Shown: positions 2,501 to 51,152 of the stretch, piece by piece | Layout: every line of letters begins with the position of its first letter | Numbering within the stretch: the first letter of the stretch is position 1 | Source: a virus | Strand: one strand, 5' to 3' | DNA: 64,000 nt | Virus record (IMG/VR): IMGVR_UViG_3300044692_000046 | Coordinates: 31,149-95,148 of that record | Position numbers and translations under genes: made by a program | The notes under the pieces: model-generated | The model's database searches: none | Told to the model about the DNA's origin: nothing | What the model saw: the letters and a program-made list of their open reading frames with translations, nothing else

Positions 2501-5008
2501 TCAAAAGGCGCACACGGCGGAGACATCGAGCTGGCCGAACACCGGGTCCCCGACGATCCACACCTGCTGCCGGTCCACCGGGGATGCCTGGATGCCGACG
2601 GTCCACTGCCCGGCAGAGAAGTCGATGCTGTGGTCGAGCTTCTCCAGGAAGAAGTCGTGCGACATGGTGAACACCGGGTTGCGGCGCTTGACCGTGATCC
2701 TCTGGTTGAGCTCCATCCCCAGCACCGTCGCGAACGCCCCGTACGGGTTGGAGCCAGCGTCGATCGTCAAGGCGCCGAGCCGCTCGACCGGTGTCTTGTA
2801 CCGCCACAGCAGGTAGTTCGCGTGGTCGATGGTCTCGGAGTCGTACGCGATCCCGATGGTCTGCGTCAACTGTCGGTCGAAGTTCGCCAGGATCGAGGTC
2901 GGGTCGGTGACGTGCTGGACGATCCCGCCGGATCGGGTGACTTCGACATCGTTGTACACCTGCGTCGGGTCCAGCGAGTAGTTGATGTCGTCCAGGTACG
3001 GGACCTCAAGCTCGCCGAACGTCCACTGCGAGGTGGTGGCCAGGAAGCGGCTGTTGCGGCCCTTGAACCGCAGCGTGCCGCCCGCGTCGACGAAGAGGAA
3101 GCCCTGCTCGCTGATCGCCACGTCGTTCATCACGTCGAGAGCGAAGTTGCCGTTCTGGGCCAGCGAGAACCCCATCGTCGACGACCCCACATCAGCGAAG
3201 CTGGGGATCGTGTAGTAGATGTTCGCCAACCGCGTCACCCGCGTGCCGCTCGACTCGCCCCAGAACCCACCGCCAGCCGTGTTGAGCGTGCTGATCTGGC
3301 TTGAGGACAGCACCGAGTTCCACAGGGCGACATGTGCGATCTCGCCGTCGAACATCTGAGTCACGCGGCCGGTGTCGTTCTCCCCACCCACCATCACCGA
3401 CGTGGCGTTCGACGGGAGCATGCCACCCAGCGAGCTGGTGGTCACAGTCGTCGAGGCCGCCGACGTGCCGTCGATCCAGACCGTGACCGTCGTGTTCGTC
3501 GAGTTCTGCGACACCGTGGACACGATGTGGTGCCAGTTGCCGTCGTTGATCTTCTTGGTGGTGATCGCCTGCACATAGCCAGCGGACGCGCCACCACCCA
3601 CCGCATAGCCAACCTCCGCGACGATCGTCGCGTCGCCCTGCATGAACATACCGATCGGCAGGGTGGTGTTGTTGCCGGTAACCTCCCCGACGAGCGCAAT
3701 GTCGCCGGCGACGTTCGGTGCGACGCCGACCGCGTCACAGTGCACCCAGGCGGCCAAGGTCGCGCCCCACGCTGAGCCCGGCGTAGCAGGAACGGCGACG
3801 ATGCCGGTTGTCTTGTTCGCCGACCGGCCGGCCCCGATCGCGGTGCCGTTGCTGGAAGTCGCCTGGTCGGGGAAGAACTGGGCAGCCACCCCGCCGGGGT
3901 CTCCGGTGATGGCCGACGATTGACCAGCGGAGACCCCGCTGCCCGCACCGTACTTCGACACCATCAGGCCGAGGCTCGGGCCGTTGTTGCCGCTGGCCTC
4001 GGCGAAACTGGAAGCGCCCTGAGGCTCCCAGAGAGGCCAGTAGTAGGCCGGCTGGTAGGACAGGATCTGGTTCGCGACCTCGCCATGGACTGCTTGCTGG
4101 CTCAACACCGCCAGGGAGTCCACGCACGTGATCTCCGCCATCCCGTAGGTGCCCTGGAAATCCCACCGGGACGGCCACCGCTCGACGTAGCCCGTGAACA
4201 CCGAGTACAGCACCGGCCCGCTCGTCGACCAGGTGGTGGCGGTGGCTCCGCTCTCCTGCTGGATGGCGTCCACGTACACGGTGCCCGTGTTGGCCGGGCT
4301 GGGCGCGTACACCCACAGGTTGATGCGGGGCTGCGTCGCCGTCCACGTGACCGTGATGCGCGTCCAGGCTCCCGTGGTGCTCGTGCCCGCACCGGTGGCC
4401 GCGAACGACGCGGGCGGGTCAACGAGGCTAGTGTCGATACCGAGCTGCACCGTGTACGCGGCGGTCAGCCACACGTAGGCGCTGAACGTGTACTGCTGGC
4501 CGGGGGTAACGGTCAGCTTCCAGCGCATCCCCTGCAGGCCGCCGCCGGACGACACCGGCCACGAGACGCTCTGCGTGCCCTGGAACGCCTGCGCAGTGGA
4601 CACCGTGGGGGGCGAGGTCAGGAACCAGTTGATATCCCCCGCCGGCAAGCCACCAACAGCCGCCGCCTCGAATCCCGGGTCCATCTTGGTCAGCATGTTC
4701 GGCCCGCCCGCCGCAGTGTTCGTCGGCGGCCACAGCGCCTGCGTGATGATGCGGCGGTAGGGCACCACGTTCGGGTAATAGGCGGAGGCGGTGTTAGCCG
4801 GGTTGAACGCCTCGTTCGAGTCCAGCAGTACCATGTTCGCGGTGCCGGCCTGGATCGTGTCCAGCTCGTACTGCCGGCCCCGCGTGGTGCTGAGGCTCTG
4901 CACCTGACTGGAGATGTCCGTCCACACCGGCGTCACGTTGCTCGCTGGGCCAGCGTTGAACGCCACCTGCGTGGTGAGGATCGGCCAGTTCGGGTTGGGA
5001 GAGGTCAT
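2501..5008 (-). CDS. Minor tail protein with CBM-like and LamG-like domains (835 aa)
   Basis: 835 residues. Layout: an N-terminal module (1-100) ending NPANTASAYYPNVVPYRR, a carbohydrate-binding-like jelly roll (about 105-260; TFSAYVWLTA, YVDAIQQESG), a short conserved linker (VERWPSRWDFQGTYG), a laminin-G/concanavalin-like domain (about 340-578; NWHHIVSTVS, VALWNSVLSSSQI) and a C-terminal module (about 585-835). The N- and C-terminal modules are shared with the 1027-residue neighbour, so the two are tandem paralogues. Both sit just after the tape measure, where baseplate hub and tip proteins lie. I infer a tail-tip protein that binds surface glycans. Confidence 0.8.
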   Translation of the reverse strand: MTSPNPNWPILTTQVAFNAGPASNVTPVWTDISSQVQSLSTTRGRQYELDTIQAGTANMVLLDSNEAFNPANTASAYYPNVVPYRRIITQALWPPTNTAAGGPNMLTKMDPGFEAAAVGGLPAGDINWFLTSPPTVSTAQAFQGTQSVSWPVSSGGGLQGMRWKLTVTPGQQYTFSAYVWLTAAYTVQLGIDTSLVDPPASFAATGAGTSTTGAWTRITVTWTATQPRINLWVYAPSPANTGTVYVDAIQQESGATATTWSTSGPVLYSVFTGYVERWPSRWDFQGTYGMAEITCVDSLAVLSQQAVHGEVANQILSYQPAYYWPLWEPQGASSFAEASGNNGPSLGLMVSKYGAGSGVSAGQSSAITGDPGGVAAQFFPDQATSSNGTAIGAGRSANKTTGIVAVPATPGSAWGATLAAWVHCDAVGVAPNVAGDIALVGEVTGNNTTLPIGMFMQGDATIVAEVGYAVGGGASAGYVQAITTKKINDGNWHHIVSTVSQNSTNTTVTVWIDGTSAASTTVTTSSLGGMLPSNATSVMVGGENDTGRVTQMFDGEIAHVALWNSVLSSSQISTLNTAGGGFWGESSGTRVTRLANIYYTIPSFADVGSSTMGFSLAQNGNFALDVMNDVAISEQGFLFVDAGGTLRFKGRNSRFLATTSQWTFGELEVPYLDDINYSLDPTQVYNDVEVTRSGGIVQHVTDPTSILANFDRQLTQTIGIAYDSETIDHANYLLWRYKTPVERLGALTIDAGSNPYGAFATVLGMELNQRITVKRRNPVFTMSHDFFLEKLDHSIDFSAGQWTVGIQASPVDRQQVWIVGDPVFGQLDVSAVCAF

Positions 5009-44569: not shown

Positions 44570-45952
44570 TCAGATCGCCATCGAGACGAAACGGGAGAAG
44601 TGCAGCTGCGCCGCGACCGTCACAGTGCCGGTCGACGCGTCGCGGGCCTTCGCGATGATGAAGTCCGCCTCGCCGGCGCGCGGGCACTCGTCGTCGTAGT
44701 AGTCCTCCCGGTGCAGCAGGATCACCACGTCTGCCGCCGCTTCCAGATCCCCGGACTCGCGCAGGTCCGACAACACGGGCCGCTTGTCCTGGCGCTTCTC
44801 GTTGTCGCGGTTGAGCTGGGTCGGGACGATCAGCGGCACTTCCAGCTCGCCGGCAAGCTCCTTGAGCCCGCGGGCGACCGCGGCGACCTCCTGCTGCCGG
44901 TTCTCGACCCGGCGGCCCGGCTTCACTAGCTGGGCGTAGTCCACGACCAGCATCCCTAGCCCGTGGCGGCGCTTGTGCCGCTGCGCCTCACCGCGCAGCG
45001 TATTGAGGGTGAGGTCGCGTTCTTCGGACAGCCACAGCGGGATCTCCGACAGGTCACCCGCTCGGGCCGACAGCTTTCGCCAGTTGTCTTCGTCGAGGCC
45101 GCCGTCGCGGATGCCTTTCAGCGGTACGCGCGCCTCCGCCGCCAGCAGCCGGTACATCAGCTCCAGGCGGGTCATTTCCAGACTGAACATCGCCACCGGG
45201 TAGCCGAGCTTCGCCGCAGTGAGAGCGAACCCGGTGGACGCTACAGACTTGCCCATGCCCGGCCGCGCCGCCACCAGGACCAGTTGGCCGGGGCGCCAGC
45301 CGCCCAGCATGTCGTCCAGGTCGACCAGGCCCGTGGGGATGATGGTGGGCCTTTCCTCGATCTTGACTGTGTTGTTGGCCTGGATCGCGTCGATCGCGTC
45401 CGGCAGCAGGTCCGGCACCGACACCAGCAGGCCCTGCGTGGAGATCGTGGCGGCAGCCTCGGCCAGCCACTTCTCAGCCTGGGCGAGCACATCCTCCGGG
45501 GACAGCATCCCGGAGGTGTGTGCCCCGTAGCCGAGCTGGACCAGCTGCCCGCCGACCTGGATGGTGCGGCGCAGGAACGCGGTCTTGGCGACCTTCCTGG
45601 CGTAGTAGGTGGCGCTCGCCGCAGCCGGCGTGTTCTGCCACAGGGTGTGCAGGTACGCGGCACCGCCCAGCCGCTCCAACTTCCCCGCGTCCTGTAGCAC
45701 CGACGACACGGTCACGAAGTCCACCGGCTCGCCCCGGCCGAACATGTCCACCATCACCGAGAACAGGTCCGCGTGGCGAGGCTGGTAGAAGTCCTCAGCC
45801 CGCAGGATCTCCACGACCTCGCCGATGGCGATGGGGGACATGAGCATCGCGCCGAGCACCGCCTGCTCCGACGGCAGGTGGTGTGGGGGTTCGTTGTCGA
45901 ACTCGGTGCCGGTCGGCTCGTCTGGGACGGCGTGCAGGTCAGCGGCGGTCAT
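44570..45952 (-). CDS. dnaB: Replicative DNA helicase DnaB
   Basis: 460 residues. N-terminal domain (LPSEQAVLGAMLMSPIAIGE, EDFYQPRHADLFSVMVDMFG) and the C-terminal RecA-like motor with Walker A ARPGMGKS at 229-236, then SLEMTRLELMYRLLA, Walker B LVVDYAQL and VLSDLRESGDLEAAADVV. Hexamer that unwinds the replication fork 5' to 3'. ATG overlaps the upstream methyltransferase stop (TGATG). Its loader is encoded at 48183-48863, so the phage supplies both. Confidence 0.93.
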   Translation of the reverse strand: MTAADLHAVPDEPTGTEFDNEPPHHLPSEQAVLGAMLMSPIAIGEVVEILRAEDFYQPRHADLFSVMVDMFGRGEPVDFVTVSSVLQDAGKLERLGGAAYLHTLWQNTPAAASATYYARKVAKTAFLRRTIQVGGQLVQLGYGAHTSGMLSPEDVLAQAEKWLAEAAATISTQGLLVSVPDLLPDAIDAIQANNTVKIEERPTIIPTGLVDLDDMLGGWRPGQLVLVAARPGMGKSVASTGFALTAAKLGYPVAMFSLEMTRLELMYRLLAAEARVPLKGIRDGGLDEDNWRKLSARAGDLSEIPLWLSEERDLTLNTLRGEAQRHKRRHGLGMLVVDYAQLVKPGRRVENRQQEVAAVARGLKELAGELEVPLIVPTQLNRDNEKRQDKRPVLSDLRESGDLEAAADVVILLHREDYYDDECPRAGEADFIIAKARDASTGTVTVAAQLHFSRFVSMAI

Positions 45953-47052
45953 CAGGCACTCTCCAAACCATCGAACAGCGACGCCTGACCGGACACCTCG
46001 ACGGGCGGCTTCGCCACACCCAGCACCTTTGCCAACTGACCGGGGTCGGTGGTGCGCCAGGTGGCGAGCCGGCAGTAGTCGGCGGACCGGTCCACGCTGA
46101 TGCCGTGCCGACCCAGCGCCTTGGCGATCAGCGCGGTGGTGCCGGTGCCGCCGAACGGGTCGAGCACCACGCCGGCCGGCGGGCACCAGCCGCGGATGAG
46201 TCGATCCGGCCAGCGGGTCGGGAACGCGGCGAAGTGGTCCACGCCGAGCTCGGTCGGCACCTGGAGCGGCTCGGTGGCGACCTCCCACACGCTGCTCGGC
46301 AGCTTGCCGAGCGGGTTCACGCCGGCCCTCGGCACATCGGTCAAGGTTGACGAGTGCCTGGTGGCCACCCCAGCCGGCTGCTCGCCGCGATCCCTCATCT
46401 GCGGCGCGAATCGACGTTGCGGCTTCGCCTCGTACGGCTGCCGGATCTCGTCGACCGCGCTGTAGTAGCGCGGCTGCTTGACGAGGTGGAACCACTGCTC
46501 GTGCGAGCGCCGCACCCGGTCCGTCACCGACTCGGGTAGGCCGTTGGGCTTCGACCAGATCAGCTCGGCGCGCAGGATCAGGCCCAGGTCGTCGATGCAG
46601 CGCAGCGCGTACCGCCACGGCAGACCCATCAGCGACTTCTCCGGCACGTACCGGCCGCCGTCCGGGTCGGTGATGTTCTCGTACGGCATGCGCGCCAGGC
46701 CGGCGGCGCGGTCGCGCTTCCAGTCTTTGACCAGCTCCGAGCGATCCGGGAACAGGCCGTCCTGGTGGCTGGACATGCGCGCGGCGACGCGCTGGGAGTA
46801 CTTGTCGCCGAGGTTCACCCACAGCGATCCGGACGGCTTGAGGACCCGCACCCACTCCCGGGTGCACTCGATCAACGCGTCGATGTAGGCAGCCGGGGTG
46901 CGCTCGGAGCCGATCTGTTCGGCGTAGTGCCCGCCGCCGTCCTGGTAGCTCCGGAGCCCGAAGTACGGCGGGGAGGTCACCACGAGATCCACTGATGCGT
47001 CGGGCAACGGTAGGTGTCGAGCATCGCCACGCAGGACGGATGCCGTTCCCAT
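45952..47052 (-). CDS. DNA methyltransferase, N4-cytosine/N6-adenine type, with replaced 5' end
   Basis: 366 residues from the ATG at 47050-47052. TSPPY at 26-30 is the catalytic motif IV and VLDPFGGTGTTALIAKALGR near the end is motif I, so the order is the beta class. A segment (SEDHQ... VRRSHEQWFHLVKQPRYY in outline) contains the target-recognition region. The first 30 codons are a diverged duplicate of a stretch left upstream at 47735-47827. The ATG has no coupling to a neighbour: the upstream side is a divergent endonuclease gene. This is probably a repaired gene that still makes a full-length enzyme. Confidence 0.88.
   Translation of the reverse strand: MGTASVLRGDARHLPLPDASVDLVVTSPPYFGLRSYQDGGGHYAEQIGSERTPAAYIDALIECTREWVRVLKPSGSLWVNLGDKYSQRVAARMSSHQDGLFPDRSELVKDWKRDRAAGLARMPYENITDPDGGRYVPEKSLMGLPWRYALRCIDDLGLILRAELIWSKPNGLPESVTDRVRRSHEQWFHLVKQPRYYSAVDEIRQPYEAKPQRRFAPQMRDRGEQPAGVATRHSSTLTDVPRAGVNPLGKLPSSVWEVATEPLQVPTELGVDHFAAFPTRWPDRLIRGWCPPAGVVLDPFGGTGTTALIAKALGRHGISVDRSADYCRLATWRTTDPGQLAKVLGVAKPPVEVSGQASLFDGLESA
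46963..47052 (-). repeat. Duplicated methyltransferase 5' end, active copy
   Basis: Ninety bases encoding 30 residues through TSPPY. Compared by eye to the copy at 47735-47827, 26 of 30 residues are the same but only about 65 of 90 bases. The differences are mostly synonymous, so the two copies were separately evolved versions of the same protein segment rather than a recent tandem duplication. Confidence 0.75.
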
Positions 47053-47089
47053 ACCCGCCATCATGGTAGGCACTGAGTACCCTGTTGGC

Positions 47090-47734
47090 ATGGCTTCAGC
47101 ACCAACCGATCTGGCCTACGCGGCCGGCGTTGTGGACTCGGACGGCTACATCGGTGTGCACCGCAGCACCTATGCGATGCGGGTCCGCGGCGACGCTGGC
47201 CAAGCCGTCTACGTGCCGCGCGTCGCGGTCAAACAAGTGACCCCACAGGCACTGGACCTGCTCCACGAGGTGTTCGGCGGGCACCGGTACAGCGGGAAGC
47301 CGACAGCCGCCCGTGGCCGGCCGCTGCTCGGCTGGGCCGTGCACTCGGCCATGGCCGCCCGAACCTGCGAAGCGCTGCTGCCGTTCCTCAGAATCAAGCG
47401 CGAGCAGGCGCTCAACGCCATCGAGGTAGGCCGACTTAATGCGCTCGGGGAGCGCCACCGGTTTGATCTCCCCGAGGTTGACCCTGCAGAGCCTATGGTG
47501 ACCATGGCCGAGGCAGCCCGCAGGCTCGGCAAGCGCTACGACGTGGTGCTGCAATCCGTGCGCCGGGGCAACGTGCCGCACCTGCGCCTTGGACCACGGA
47601 AAGTGCTCATCCCGGAGTCGTACCTTGTGATCTGGGCAAGGCGCGGCACGAACGCACCGCGCCGCGCGGACATCACCACGCAGCTGGAGGTGTGCCTGGC
47701 GCGCGCCCAGGAGCTGAACCGGGTTGGCCGCTGA
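47090..47734 (+). CDS. LAGLIDADG homing endonuclease fused to excisionase-like HTH
   Basis: 214 residues from ATG at 47090 (an upstream ATG at 47063 is possible). LAYAAGVVDSDGYIGV at 8-23 is a single LAGLIDADG motif with the acidic active-site residue. A C-terminal domain, about 138-185 (MVTMAEAARRLGKRYDVVLQ, GPRKVLIPESYLVIWARR), is a MerR/excisionase-like helix-turn-helix, an unusual partner that may aid target recognition. The single motif implies a homodimer. The 3' end lies just beside the TSPPY codons of a stranded methyltransferase start, and the gene is on the opposite strand to its neighbours. TACCCT six bases before the ATG suggests a leaderless transcript. Confidence 0.85.
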   Translation: MASAPTDLAYAAGVVDSDGYIGVHRSTYAMRVRGDAGQAVYVPRVAVKQVTPQALDLLHEVFGGHRYSGKPTAARGRPLLGWAVHSAMAARTCEALLPFLRIKREQALNAIEVGRLNALGERHRFDLPEVDPAEPMVTMAEAARRLGKRYDVVLQSVRRGNVPHLRLGPRKVLIPESYLVIWARRGTNAPRRADITTQLEVCLARAQELNRVGR

Positions 47735-47827
47735 GTACGGCGGGCTGGTGACGATCAGGTCCACGCTCGCGTCCGGTAGCGGCAGGGCGCGGGCATCGCC
47801 CCGCAGGATCGTTGCGGTACCCAACAT
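47735..47827 (-). pseudogene. Stranded 5' end of the methyltransferase gene
   Basis: ATG TTG then codons for GTATILRGDARALPLPDASV and DLIVTSPPY, 31 codons, ending exactly where the endonuclease stop lies on the other strand. Its ATG overlaps the preceding gene's stop as TGATG, the coupling typical of this operon, so it was probably the original start of the methyltransferase. The frame continues antisense to the endonuclease to 47096 but has no homology there, so no functional product is expected. Confidence 0.75.
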
Positions 47828-48186
47828 CAGCACGCCTCCCCCGGGTCGTCTTCGGACATCTCCGCGATGCGCCCGAGCAGATCCCGGCGGCCGGCACGCC
47901 AGCCAGCCTTGTACGGCTCCTCCTCGGCCGCGACCAGCAGCGTCACCGGGCCTCGGGCCAGCAGGTCGTCCCAGGTGTTGTGCACCTTGGTCACACCGGC
48001 CGGCATGCGCCCGCGGTCCCAGACCATCCAGAACTCGCCGCCGAGCGGGTACCAGACGCCGATGTTCGCGCCCGACGACACCCAGATCTCCTGATCGCGG
48101 TAGTAGCCGTAGTTGATGGCCACCACGGCGCCGCTGCACAGGTCCGGCTCGGGGTCGCCCGCCCGGAACACCTTCGGCTCGCTCAC
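47827..48186 (-). CDS. Unknown protein of the replication block
   Basis: 119 residues from GTG overlapping the DnaC-type stop (GTGA). SEPKVFRAGDPEPDLCSGAV, VAINYGYYRDQEIWVSSGAN, GEFWMVWDRGRMPAGVTKVH and the helical end PYKAGWRAGRRDLLGRIAEM. The beta-strand first half could be a small OB-like or SH3-like fold. No family recognised. It sits between the DnaC-type loader and the stranded methyltransferase start. Confidence 0.6.
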   Translation of the reverse strand: MSEPKVFRAGDPEPDLCSGAVVAINYGYYRDQEIWVSSGANIGVWYPLGGEFWMVWDRGRMPAGVTKVHNTWDDLLARGPVTLLVAAEEEPYKAGWRAGRRDLLGRIAEMSEDDPGEAC

Positions 48187-48863
48187 CGCGCACCACCCGG
48201 CACCCGCCGGTCCGGGCCGGAGAACCCGACCCGCACCGAGTCCAGCAGCCGCGACGCGATCCGATCCCCCACCGCCTCGTCCAACTCGTCCGCGTCGGTG
48301 TTCGCCGTGATCACCATCGGCAGGTGATCCGCCCACCGGGTGTCCACGATGTCCAGCAGCGCCTCCGCGCCCCAGTCCGAGATCCGCGCCGACGTCAGGT
48401 CGTCGAGGAACAGCAGGTCGCACGTCTTGTACCGGTAGATCTTCGATAGGTGCTCGTCGTCCGGCCTCGGCCGCACATCCCCCGCCAACTGCACGTGCGT
48501 GCGGAACTCCCACCTCAACGTCTTGTTGAGATGCGCGAACGCCAGCGCCGTCTCCCGCAGCACCCCGTACGCGGCGTGCGTCTTGCCGGTGCCGCGCAGC
48601 CCCAGCAGGATCAGCGACGGCACCCCCCGCGAGTTGTCGACGAACTCCCGCACCCAGCGGGCGATGCGCGGGTGCTCGACCTTCGCCTCCTGGAACTCCA
48701 TCCGGATCCGCCGGGCCAGCACCCCCTCGGTGCGTTCCACCCGCCACGCGATCGGGTCGAAGCGGTCCGCGTCGATCTCTTCCTGCGTCAGCGGCGGCAG
48801 GTCCTTCGGGATCCTGGCCCGGATCTGCTCGACGAGATCCGCGAGGTTCTTCGGCTCGTTCAT
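48183..48863 (-). CDS. dnaC: DnaC-type helicase loader (AAA+ ATPase)
   Basis: 226 residues. Walker A GLRGTGKT at 88-95 and Walker B LLFLDDL near 150, then VDTRWADHLPMVITANTDAD (sensor 1 region) and GDRIASRLLDSVRVGFSGPD with the SRL motif of DnaC/IstB-type loaders. It delivers DnaB to the replication origin complex with the initiator encoded just upstream. Coupled start (ATGA). Confidence 0.88.
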   Translation of the reverse strand: MNEPKNLADLVEQIRARIPKDLPPLTQEEIDADRFDPIAWRVERTEGVLARRIRMEFQEAKVEHPRIARWVREFVDNSRGVPSLILLGLRGTGKTHAAYGVLRETALAFAHLNKTLRWEFRTHVQLAGDVRPRPDDEHLSKIYRYKTCDLLFLDDLTSARISDWGAEALLDIVDTRWADHLPMVITANTDADELDEAVGDRIASRLLDSVRVGFSGPDRRVPGGAR

Positions 48864-49909
48864 GCACCTCTCCTGCCACGGCTGCCGTACAGCCGGTCGT
48901 CATCGAACGCGTGGGGGTCGTTAGTAACGGTCTTGATCGACGAAGTGCGGCCGTTCGTCGGCCGCGACGGGAGCCGCTCCTGGGCGTTGAGCATCCAGTT
49001 CCGCCAGGTAGCAACCCAGTCCCGCTTGGTCGCGTCCCTGCCGGTCTTCGCCGTCCAGTAGTTGATGAACTTCTCGGTCTCGCGCCGACCGTCAACGTCC
49101 GGGGCGTTCTCCGCAGCCCACGCAACCATCGCCGGGGTGACCGCGAAGTCAGCCGGGATCCGAGTCCCTCTGTTCGAGCTCCGCTGCGAAGCAGCGGAAG
49201 AAGAAGTTTGGGAGTGGGAATGGGTACGGGTAGCTATCCCTTTAGGGATAGCCCGACGCGCAGGCGCGCGCGAGCCATCGTTTGCTACGCCGTTGCTATC
49301 GGCGTCATGGCAACCGGATGGCAAGTTGCCATCGTCTCCTGCGGTTTCACCCGCAGGGTCGAATAGGCCCTCGGCGATGTGAACCCCGTTGCGGGGTGCC
49401 GCCGCCTGCGTCCCGTCCAGAGGCTGCTGTGCCGTCTCGGCCGCCATACCGCTGCCATCGCCAGCCATGTCGTTGCCATCCGTCTTGCCATCGGAGTCAT
49501 GGCTAGCCGATGGCAACTTCCCATCCTGTCCTGCGGTTTTGTGGCCTGCCCAGCGCTTCGCGGCACCGCGCTTGCCTGCCTCCGACCGGGCCTGCTTGGT
49601 CTCCTCGGTCGGCAGGTAGTCGTTGAAGTCGTGGATCAGCCAGGCGCCGTCGTCCTGCGTCTCCCACAGGTTGTGCTTCACCAGCAGCTCGGCCGCCAGC
49701 TTGGCGTGACCGCCGAGGTAGCGCCGCGGCAGCCCAGCCGGCAAGCGGCCCGGCGTCTCCCCGCGCTTGCGGGTGTTGCGGTGCGCCCAGGTGAAGCACA
49801 GCGACCACAAGCCGATCGCCGCCGCCCCGAGGAGCTGGTCCTCTTCGTCGAGAAGGGCGAGCACCTTCGGGTGGTCGTCGAAGCGGTCATCGATGCGTCC
49901 CCAGCCCAT
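48860..49909 (-). CDS. Replication initiator (O-like/DnaD-like)
   Basis: 349 residues, ATG overlapping the HNH stop (TGATG). The N-terminal winged-helix (MGWGRIDDRFDDHPKVLALL, AAAIGLWSLCFTWAHRNTRK, AAELLVKHNLWETQDDGAWL) is the standard origin-binding domain of phage replisome organisers; the C-terminal FINYWTAKTGRDATKRDWVA, TWRNWMLNAQER is the loader-contact region. The linker contains two similar segments (DGKLPSASHDSDGK and DGNLPSGCHDADSN) consistent with a duplicated flexible piece. Acts with the DnaC-type and DnaB proteins downstream. Confidence 0.82.
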   Translation of the reverse strand: MGWGRIDDRFDDHPKVLALLDEEDQLLGAAAIGLWSLCFTWAHRNTRKRGETPGRLPAGLPRRYLGGHAKLAAELLVKHNLWETQDDGAWLIHDFNDYLPTEETKQARSEAGKRGAAKRWAGHKTAGQDGKLPSASHDSDGKTDGNDMAGDGSGMAAETAQQPLDGTQAAAPRNGVHIAEGLFDPAGETAGDDGNLPSGCHDADSNGVANDGSRAPARRAIPKGIATRTHSHSQTSSSAASQRSSNRGTRIPADFAVTPAMVAWAAENAPDVDGRRETEKFINYWTAKTGRDATKRDWVATWRNWMLNAQERLPSRPTNGRTSSIKTVTNDPHAFDDDRLYGSRGRRGA

Positions 49910-50520
49910 CAGCGCGCCGTCTCTTCGGAGGCGGCGTACCACGCGGCAAGCACCGTGGCCCGGTCGTGTAGCTTCACCAACTCGATCCGAGCCAACTTGC
50001 AGGTGTGACGGAATACGTTGTTGAGGAAGATGCTCTCGTCCGACATGGCGATGTCGAGGCAGTTGAGCAGGATCTCGAATGGCAGGCCACCGAGCAGCAG
50101 CCCGTCCACGATGCCCACCCACGTCTGAGGTCGCGGCGCCTCGAACCGGTGCTTCTTCAACCGCGAACCCGGACGGCTCCAACTCATCCACCGCTCATCG
50201 AACTCCCGGATGCGCTGTCGCCGCTCCTCCATGTCGGTCAGCGCTATCTGCGCGCAGACCTCGATGGCGCGTGCCCACCGCTCCGCGTCGTCGCGGACAG
50301 CGGGGATCATCGGCTCGCTGTCGAGCGGTACGTCATGCTTGCCGCTGTTGCAGTCCCAGCAGGCGACAACGAGGTTCTCGGCGCGGTTGAGGCCACCCAG
50401 ACTGATCGGCACGAGGTGGTCGATGGTGAGTCGCGCCTCGGCTGAGGTCGCGCCGCAGTAGCGACAGCGGTATCCGTCGCGCTTGAACACCTCGAACCGG
50501 ATCCTCTTGTTGACCGCCAC
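49909..50520 (-). CDS. HNH endonuclease
   Basis: 203 residues from GTG with GGGGGGA upstream. KRDGYRCRYCGATSAEARLT, IDHLVPISLGGLNRAENLVV and ACWDCNSGKHD are the HNH signature: two CxxC pairs, D-H, N and K-H. The C-terminal 100 residues are a helical domain (VDGLLLGGLPFEILLNCLDI) that may be the DNA-recognition part. It lies between the initiator and the Phd-like regulator, a common spot for homing insertion, and its stop overlaps the initiator start. Confidence 0.85.
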   Translation of the reverse strand: MAVNKRIRFEVFKRDGYRCRYCGATSAEARLTIDHLVPISLGGLNRAENLVVACWDCNSGKHDVPLDSEPMIPAVRDDAERWARAIEVCAQIALTDMEERRQRIREFDERWMSWSRPGSRLKKHRFEAPRPQTWVGIVDGLLLGGLPFEILLNCLDIAMSDESIFLNNVFRHTCKLARIELVKLHDRATVLAAWYAASEETAR

Positions 50521-50703
50521 TCGTTCGTCCCCCCAGGTCGTGGTTGTCGTGTCGGGCAGACCCCGGCGGTCGCGGCGCCGCGGTGAGCGCGTGACTTGCG
50601 CTCCGTACCTCACAGACCTTACAGTACTAGCAGACCTCACAGCAAGATCCGGCAGGAGGGCGGGATGTTCAAGGTTGAACCTGGAGGGCTGTACGATCCG
50701 TAC
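50521..50703. promoter_or_regulatory. Regulatory region with iterons and an inverted repeat
   Basis: Between the divergent HNH and Phd-like genes. Three 9-base iterons ACCTNACAG occur at 50607-50615, 50616-50624 and 50634-50642. A palindrome GTTCAA-GG-TTGAAC lies at 50667-50680. For rightward transcription TTGCGC (50596-50601), 18 bases, TACAGT (50620-50625) is a possible promoter overlapping the iterons, and TACGAT (50692-50697) six bases before ATG 50704 fits a leaderless promoter with the palindrome near its -35. The iterons could be operators or an origin, as replication genes adjoin. Confidence 0.5.
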
Positions 50704-50925
50704 ATGGCGAAGCGCGTGAAGCTCGGCATTCAGGACACGCGCCTTCATCTGCGCACCCGCGTGGACGAAGGGCTGGAGGAGGGCTCGCACACCGTCGTGA
50801 TGCGGCACGACAAGCTCGTGGCCGCGCTCGTGCCCTACTCCTGGTACCGCGACGCCTGCCTCGCTCTGGGCTACCCGGAGTTCGAGGAGGACGCGGCCCC
50901 GATCGAGCCCCCCGCCGCTTCCTGA
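50704..50925 (+). CDS. Phd/YefM-like DNA-binding regulator (antitoxin family)
   Basis: 73 residues from ATG at 50704. KLGIQDTRLHLRTRVDEGLE and SHTVVMRHDKLVAALVPYSW YRDA follow the Phd/YefM fold: a helix with L..R...L, a glycine turn, then VVxRHxKxVAxLVP. An in-frame ATG at 50665 with GGAGG upstream could give a 13-residue longer form. Phd proteins bind DNA palindromes and repress their own promoter, and usually pair with a toxin; none is encoded here. It lies opposite to all neighbours beside iterons and an inverted repeat, so a prophage regulator role is plausible. Confidence 0.65.
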   Translation: MAKRVKLGIQDTRLHLRTRVDEGLEEGSHTVVMRHDKLVAALVPYSWYRDACLALGYPEFEEDAAPIEPPAAS

Positions 50926-50927
50926 CC

Positions 50928-51152
50928 TCATCCCTCCCCCTCCTCCACCTGTAGTCCCGGTATCTCTGGCTGCCTGTCGCACACCTCGGGTGGATGCGGC
51001 GGGCTGTCTTTCGTGTGTGCGGCCGGGCGTCTGCGTCCTCGGCCGCGGTCGCCCCGGCACTTCGGTCCGCGCCGCAACGCCCGTGACGCCGGGTCCCGGA
51101 GCGGGCGGTGGCAGTCACGGCACTCCACCCGGTCCTCGGCGGGGGCGGGCAT
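50928..51152 (-). CDS. DUF6011-type zinc protein
   Basis: 74 residues. VECRDCHRPLRDPASRALRR then GPKC: the CxxCxRPLxDPxSRxxxxGxxC pattern of DUF6011, with three Cys at 11, 14 and 32 plus His15. The rest is Arg/Pro-rich. ATG overlaps the WhiB stop as TGATG. It is likely a nucleic-acid-binding or regulatory partner of WhiB. Confidence 0.7.
   Translation of the reverse strand: MPAPAEDRVECRDCHRPLRDPASRALRRGPKCRGDRGRGRRRPAAHTKDSPPHPPEVCDRQPEIPGLQVEEGEG

Follow-up and report, generated by a model that had tools for sequence, protein, structure and literature searches.

A LAGLIDADG endonuclease gene and a second 5' end of a DNA methyltransferase gene, lying next to each other in a stretch of viral DNA of 64,000 nucleotides (the window), probably make up a phage homing element, one that combines an I-CreI-like endonuclease with a replacement 5' end of its target gene. 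The window comes from a 95 kb virus record that also carries terminase, portal, tape measure and integrase genes, so its source is a temperate tailed phage. We inspected the letters and open reading frames of the locus directly (Table 1). One 5' end of the methyltransferase (copy 2) is fused to the body of the gene, and the other (the stub) is stranded beyond the endonuclease gene and stops at the codons of the catalytic motif TSPPY.

Table 1. Features of the methyltransferase locus, in window coordinates.
Feature	Position	Strand	Basis
LAGLIDADG homing endonuclease gene, 214 aa	47090..47734	+	PHROG 5046, family alignments A1/A2, AlphaFold model
Stub: putative stranded native methyltransferase 5' end, stops at TSPPY codons	47735..47827	-	sequence, codon usage, GC3
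Copy 2: putative replacement 5' end, in-frame fusion to body	46963..47052	-	sequence, codon usage, GC3
Body of N4/N6 DNA methyltransferase, probably native	45952..46962	-	Pfam N6_N4_Mtase E=1e-41; PHROG 67 E=3e-50
Complete N4/N6 methyltransferase (copy 2 + body)	45952-47052	-	ORF intact
ACTT, putative 4-base overhang left by a cut T^ACTT where copy 2 meets the body	46961..46964	-	inferred from +4 junctions of L047, L051, L138, L153
Open frame of 243 codons: stub + antisense of endonuclease	47096..47827	-	sequence; ends TGA-AGCC-ATG before methyltransferase start 47091
Preceding gene, 119 aa, stop overlaps stub start (TGATG)	47827..48186	-	sequence

The initial annotation had described two copies of the methyltransferase 5' end that agree at 26 of 30 residues and 65 of 90 bases, start codons included, and our recount concurs; when the start region was excluded, 25/29 residues and 62/87 bases were identical, the 29 codons comprising 11 identical ones, 14 with synonymous and 4 with non-synonymous differences. 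The stub reads MLGTATILRGDARALPLPDASVDLIVTSPPY (47827-47735, minus strand, 31 codons) and copy 2 reads MGTASVLRGDARHLPLPDASVDLVVTSPPY (47052-46963, minus strand) in the same frame as the body; further in-frame ATGs of the methyltransferase are found at 47061, 47064 and 47091. As that annotation also held, the endonuclease is encoded on the other strand with its stop codon TGA (47732-47734) directly adjoining the Tyr codon of the stub TSPPY (47735-47737), and the stub keeps its operon coupling to the preceding gene through the overlap TGATG at 47829-47825. The 119-aa product of the preceding gene had no relatives in our searches and no Pfam or PHROG family.

The endonuclease, which most likely starts at 47090 (MASAPTDLAYAAG), carries a single LAGLIDADG motif (LAYAAGVVDSDG) and matches PHROG 5046 (E=2e-16). 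Its AlphaFold model, with pLDDT mostly >90 over residues 11-130, matches I-MsoI/I-CreI in Foldseek (I-MsoI E=5e-7), and the enzyme is a single-motif LAGLIDADG endonuclease of the I-CreI/I-MsoI type. Its C-terminus looks HTH-like (Pfam HTH_17 E=0.003, short of the curated cut-off). A search of the divergent region for a sigma-70-like promoter found none. A group I intron was discarded as a candidate given that Rfam had no match at E<=1 over 46500-48300, and an intron or intein reading was likewise rejected, the endonuclease being on the opposite strand and the intact methyltransferase gene being free of an insert. A gene resembling HNH endonucleases (RCRYCG..LTIDHLVPISLGG) is located at 49909-51060 of the window, 3 kb upstream of the element.

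Relatives were collected by scanning 2.9 million viral contigs twice, with the endonuclease alignments A1 and A2, which were required since the endonuclease as a single query had no match among the viral contigs; most of the relatives are metagenome assemblies. The majority of the closest endonuclease relatives in these scans were located at methyltransferase genes, and at eight loci (L043, L047, L051, L137, L138, L141, L142 and L153) the endonuclease lies between two different methyltransferase 5' ends; a later scan based on junction scars added the same layout at L268, L270 and probably L264. The duplicate arrangement thus goes beyond chance, because endonuclease relatives occupy the same methyltransferase codons, also with two 5' ends, in many contigs. 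In most loci the endonuclease is antisense to the methyltransferase, and it runs in the same direction in L043, L141 and L142. Stub lengths range from about 9 codons to full TSPPY, as if the stubs had been trimmed back from one common cut. Stub candidates in L045 and L184 were very short only, and L044 has a copy 2 with no recognisable stub. A search of 397 Actinomycetota genomes yielded six weak endonuclease matches. No close empty allele was found among close relatives by a DNA search with the window, and no empty allele by a distant DNA search with L051 and L047 in phages or by a concatenated query of six methyltransferase bodies, which returned many endonuclease-free controls; we infer the ancestral, endonuclease-free state of the locus.

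Several loci depart from this layout. In L046 (1-906) an antisense endonuclease follows right after TSPPY, with a stub and no second 5' end, and the body restarts at an internal ATG behind AGGAGG, so that the methyltransferase is split in two. The endonuclease of L184 (3465-3575, reverse strand orientation) has been cut to 36 codons by an internal deletion, and this remnant of a decaying element adjoins a methyltransferase with an insertion at TSPPY. L043 and L153 have a second in-frame LAGLIDADG segment (WLAAIIDGEG and WLAALTDGEG) within the methyltransferase body, which may be the insertion described in PMC9957025. Gordonia phage Ailee (L039, 2435-4309) has a related endonuclease that overlaps a methyltransferase gene in another frame of the same strand; the overlapped gene is annotated as a two-piece DNA methyltransferase and its frame is open throughout. 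Related endonucleases are also located at the end of a DUF5131 (Gp37/Gp68) gene (L032, 1582-3076; L037 and L038, 2097-3510), where the endonuclease ORF ends in the apparent C-terminus of the DUF5131 protein; these cases are perhaps a C-terminal counterpart of the methyltransferase element.

Composition distinguishes the two 5' ends. In the window GC3 is 27/31 in the stub, 20/30 in copy 2 and 312/336 in the body, and GC3 of copy 2 was lower than that of the body in 12/12 loci (Wilcoxon p=2.4e-4), whereas 47 endonuclease-free genes showed no 5' effect on GC3 (mean +0.009; Mann-Whitney p=2e-5). GC3 of the stub exceeded that of copy 2 in every locus where it was measurable. The comparison of copy 2 with the body was significant within a single locus in the window (p=1e-4), L137 (p=1e-8) and L142 (p=2e-4), and the case for a foreign copy 2 leans on the uniform direction across loci. 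In L137, where the two 5' ends share 19/21 residues and 42/63 bases, copy 2 has a GC3 of 0.55, as against 0.95 for the stub and 0.94 for the body. The later-found L264, L268 and L270, reached by the other route, have the same pattern. Codon usage of the stub was nearer to the body than that of copy 2 in 10/10 loci (p=0.001), with z scores in the window of -0.4 for the stub, which thereby resembles the resident genes, -4.5 for copy 2 and -6.0 for the endonuclease. The ten relatives nearest to the window body have a 5' end closer to the stub than to copy 2 (0.75 vs 0.675, p=0.007). Together, composition, codon usage and the nearest relatives argue that copy 2 is foreign and probably arrived with the endonuclease, and that stub and body are the resident gene, in agreement with two proposals of the initial annotation: that a replacement 5' end accompanies the endonuclease, as the layout of the relatives also indicates, and that the stranded end is native. 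A promoter within copy 2 as the cause of its odd composition was rejected because copy 2 is unusual also downstream of a same-strand endonuclease. In a comparison of L045 with L141, protein identity was 88% for the endonuclease, 80% for copy 2 and 55% for the body; Mantel tests of copy 2 distances against endonuclease distances (p=0.07) and against body distances (p=0.26) were not significant.

The initial annotation had placed the entry of the element at the TSPPY codons, and the junctions bear this out: in 9/12 endonuclease-linked genes TSPPY is separated from the body by an insertion of 1 to 8 bases, most commonly +4, as compared with 0/48 and 1/59 (1/107) of the endonuclease-free genes. 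In the window, L137 and L142 copy 2 passes into the body without a scar, leaving an intact gene; in the other loci the methyltransferase is frameshifted or stopped at the catalytic motif, with the rest of the body open in nearly all. The small junction insertion of most relatives would destroy both the gene and the cut site. The +4 junctions read T[ACTG][ACTG]G in L047, T[ATTG][ACTG]G in L051, T[ACTA][ACTG]G in L138 and T[ATTG][ACTT]C in L153, and the two halves differ in 3/4 of them (L051, L138 and L153), which suggests that two alleles were joined. If the enzyme cut T^ACNN with a 4-nt 3' overhang and the two ends were then ligated without loss of either overhang, exactly the +4 pattern would result, and judging from these junctions the enzyme probably recognises and cuts CCNCCNT^AYNN with a 4-nt 3' overhang. 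A frame shared by stub and body was considered and dropped, as about 5/11 loci with a scar show it, close to the one third expected by chance. The scan for the +4 scar alone returned nine loci, 7/9 with an antisense endonuclease directly upstream (including L138 and L153). L246 (about 2465) and L266 (about 3427) carry the +4 scar at TSPPY without this endonuclease nearby, L246 being a 52 kb record without any such endonuclease and with an HNH-type gene upstream; these two genes may have survived a cut or lost the element.

The existence of L246 and L266, together with the insertions of L047 and L268, which are exact 4-base tandem duplications, would fit another explanation, namely that the endonuclease merely sits upstream of its target, that the fused 5' end is native and the stub an unrelated remnant, and that the TSPPY insertions are repair scars left by self-cutting or by attack from another phage. 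Repair of a single allele, however, should give identical halves, and 3/4 of the unselected +4 cases have unlike halves; this explanation also leaves the foreign codon usage of copy 2 unexplained, as well as the fact that the stub is the 5' end of the same gene in locus after locus, and we consider it unlikely. That the endonuclease replaced most of the first of two tandem paralogues, the second methyltransferase being an intact neighbour with its own 5' end, has a precedent in Amycolatopsis, Prauserella and Actinokineospora prophage regions (L125, L128, L129, L131 and L136), where two or three starts of this methyltransferase family follow each other on the same strand at a spacing of about 1 kb, but is quite improbable, given that the 5' end of such a second gene should match the codon usage of its own body and does not, and that the composition break and the insertions are located at TSPPY in copy 2 and not at a gene border.

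Returning to an element that brings its own 5' end, we examined how its new junction relates to cleavage. The idea in the initial annotation that the replacement was specially recoded to alter the cleavage site found no support. Stub and copy 2 have 72% nucleotide identity, the 48th percentile of 232 orthologous 5'-end pairs of similar protein identity, and purposeful synonymous recoding was rejected on the ground that this divergence is mid-range for ordinary orthologue pairs. The site core is nearly unchanged: the 11 bases CCCGCCGTACT spanning the presumed cut are identical in stub and copy 2, and over 22 bp, the length of an I-CreI site, a single base separates the rebuilt site of the window from the stub-type site. 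Protection by recoding is thus unsupported because the divergence is ordinary and the bases across the cut are the same. Most relatives have, instead of recoding, a small insertion at the cut codons of the fused copy. In the window, self-protection may be due to the one-base change, to more distal bases or to methylation by the methyltransferase itself, or the endonuclease may have drifted.

The antisense endonucleases have an open reverse frame. In the codon-aligned reverse frame of 12 antisense members we observed 5 stops vs 46.8 expected, as compared with 9 vs 13.0 in same-strand members and 79 vs 81.2 in 20 endonucleases located elsewhere, the last figures indicating that the expectation is calibrated; three members found afterwards had 2 stops vs 11.5 expected. 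In 13/15 loci the phase of the stub matches that of the endonuclease frame or of its antisense (binomial p=3e-5). In the window the 243-codon frame that starts in the stub ends at a TGA 4 nt before an in-frame methyltransferase ATG, in L137 and L270 the stop of the antisense frame overlaps the copy 2 start (ATGA), and in L051 it lies 5 bases before that start. Selection for translation across the insert presumably keeps the reverse frame open. Possibly, and we put this forward with some reserve, ribosomes arriving from the upstream gene translate the stub and the antisense frame and then reinitiate at the start codon of the replacement. At another conserved place of the methyltransferase, near FLLSKSxRYYYDxEA (site 2), the relatives L049, L052/L053, L145 and L147 (about 3480-4020 in each) have the endonuclease antisense inside the gene, and the methyltransferase frame passes through it without a stop, leaving the endonuclease hidden on the reverse strand.

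The initial annotation had compared the locus with the mitochondrial atp6 gene of Allomyces. The likeness stands, but Allomyces is not the closest analogue; by comparison of the arrangements the yeast WHO elements are nearer (PMC7282813). In the geometry proposed for WHO at FBA1, the element replaces the 3' end of the gene, and the old 3' end becomes a fragment and then a homology arm (PMC7282813). Like the phage element, WHO has a LAGLIDADG-type endonuclease between a full-length chimeric target gene and the former gene end of the recipient, one gene end replaced by homing, a 4-base overhang (in the phage a presumed one, read from the junctions) and frameshifted fragments; it differs in replacing the 3' rather than the 5' end, in having an HO/intein-derived enzyme with a zinc finger and in residing at a chromosomal yeast gene (PMC7282813). 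The mORF gene hybrids of Allomyces atp6 and of Glomus atp6, atp9, cox2 and nad3 also combine an endonuclease ORF with a gene end of foreign origin that is joined to the host gene, the native end lying stranded beyond and the copies being largely synonymous (Glomus atp6: 91% protein, 63.5% DNA identity), whereas they concern the C-terminal end, are mitochondrial, have an endonuclease described downstream of the hybrid and have no antisense open frame reported (PMC3630166). In the window, the endonuclease is flanked on one side by the full-length target gene and on the other by a second piece of that gene's 5' end, and by codon usage, GC3 and nearest relatives the fused end is foreign and the stranded end native; the end concerned is the 5' one, and we regard the element as a mirror variant and do not file it as a member of the WHO/Allomyces type. 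The Tremella introns said to bear N-terminal duplications actually bear an analogue of the exon that follows them and so are of the downstream-replacing kind (PMC7315562).

Among phages, the closest parallels are endonuclease elements hidden in methylase genes (PMC9957025, PMC11855218) and nuclease genes located at the boundaries of exchange between phages (PMC10448857). The methylase insertions, an in-frame LAGLIDADG and the hidden HNH of ShiLan, likewise place homing endonucleases at conserved methylase codons and, like our site-2 relatives, leave the host frame open through the insert, but they have no duplicated or replaced gene end and the HNH is read from the same strand in a different frame instead of in antisense (PMC9957025, PMC11855218). 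The free-standing seg and mob endonucleases of T4-like phages and mobE in nrdA resemble the element in homing without an intron beside or in the target gene, often at active-site codons, and L046 resembles a split gene such as Aeh1 nrdA; they differ in carrying no replacement gene end and in being GIY-YIG and HNH enzymes (PMC2988022). The literature searched, which covered few subscription journals, contained no description of an N-terminal replacement element in a phage gene or of an antisense endonuclease with a preserved reverse frame.

We propose the following course of events. The endonuclease would cut a related methyltransferase gene at the TSPPY codons, which any working methyltransferase of this kind must keep; this specificity is read from the junctions. 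The break would be repaired, by a path deduced from the arrangement, from the endonuclease-bearing phage, which would set the endonuclease and the donor copy 2 before the recipient's body. The recipient's own 5' end, cut at TSPPY or trimmed from it, would be left beyond the endonuclease as the stub, coupled as seen to the preceding gene, and the new junction would be seamless, as in the window, or carry a small insertion, as in most relatives. In antisense elements the reverse frame of the endonuclease would be kept open and extend the stub, and translation would probably cross the insert and restart on copy 2.

Homing elements that replace a gene end are known from yeasts and fungal mitochondria; this element would add phages to their range and the N-terminal end to what they replace. 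In phages such elements would exchange, between distant relatives, the parts of DNA modification genes on either side of the catalytic motif, and their junctions render the cut site and its overhang directly testable. If ribosomes indeed pass through the antisense frame, a replacement gene start and a translational bridge united in one homing element would avoid polarity on the invaded operon, and confirmation of the bridge would reveal a new way for a selfish gene inside an operon to spare downstream expression.
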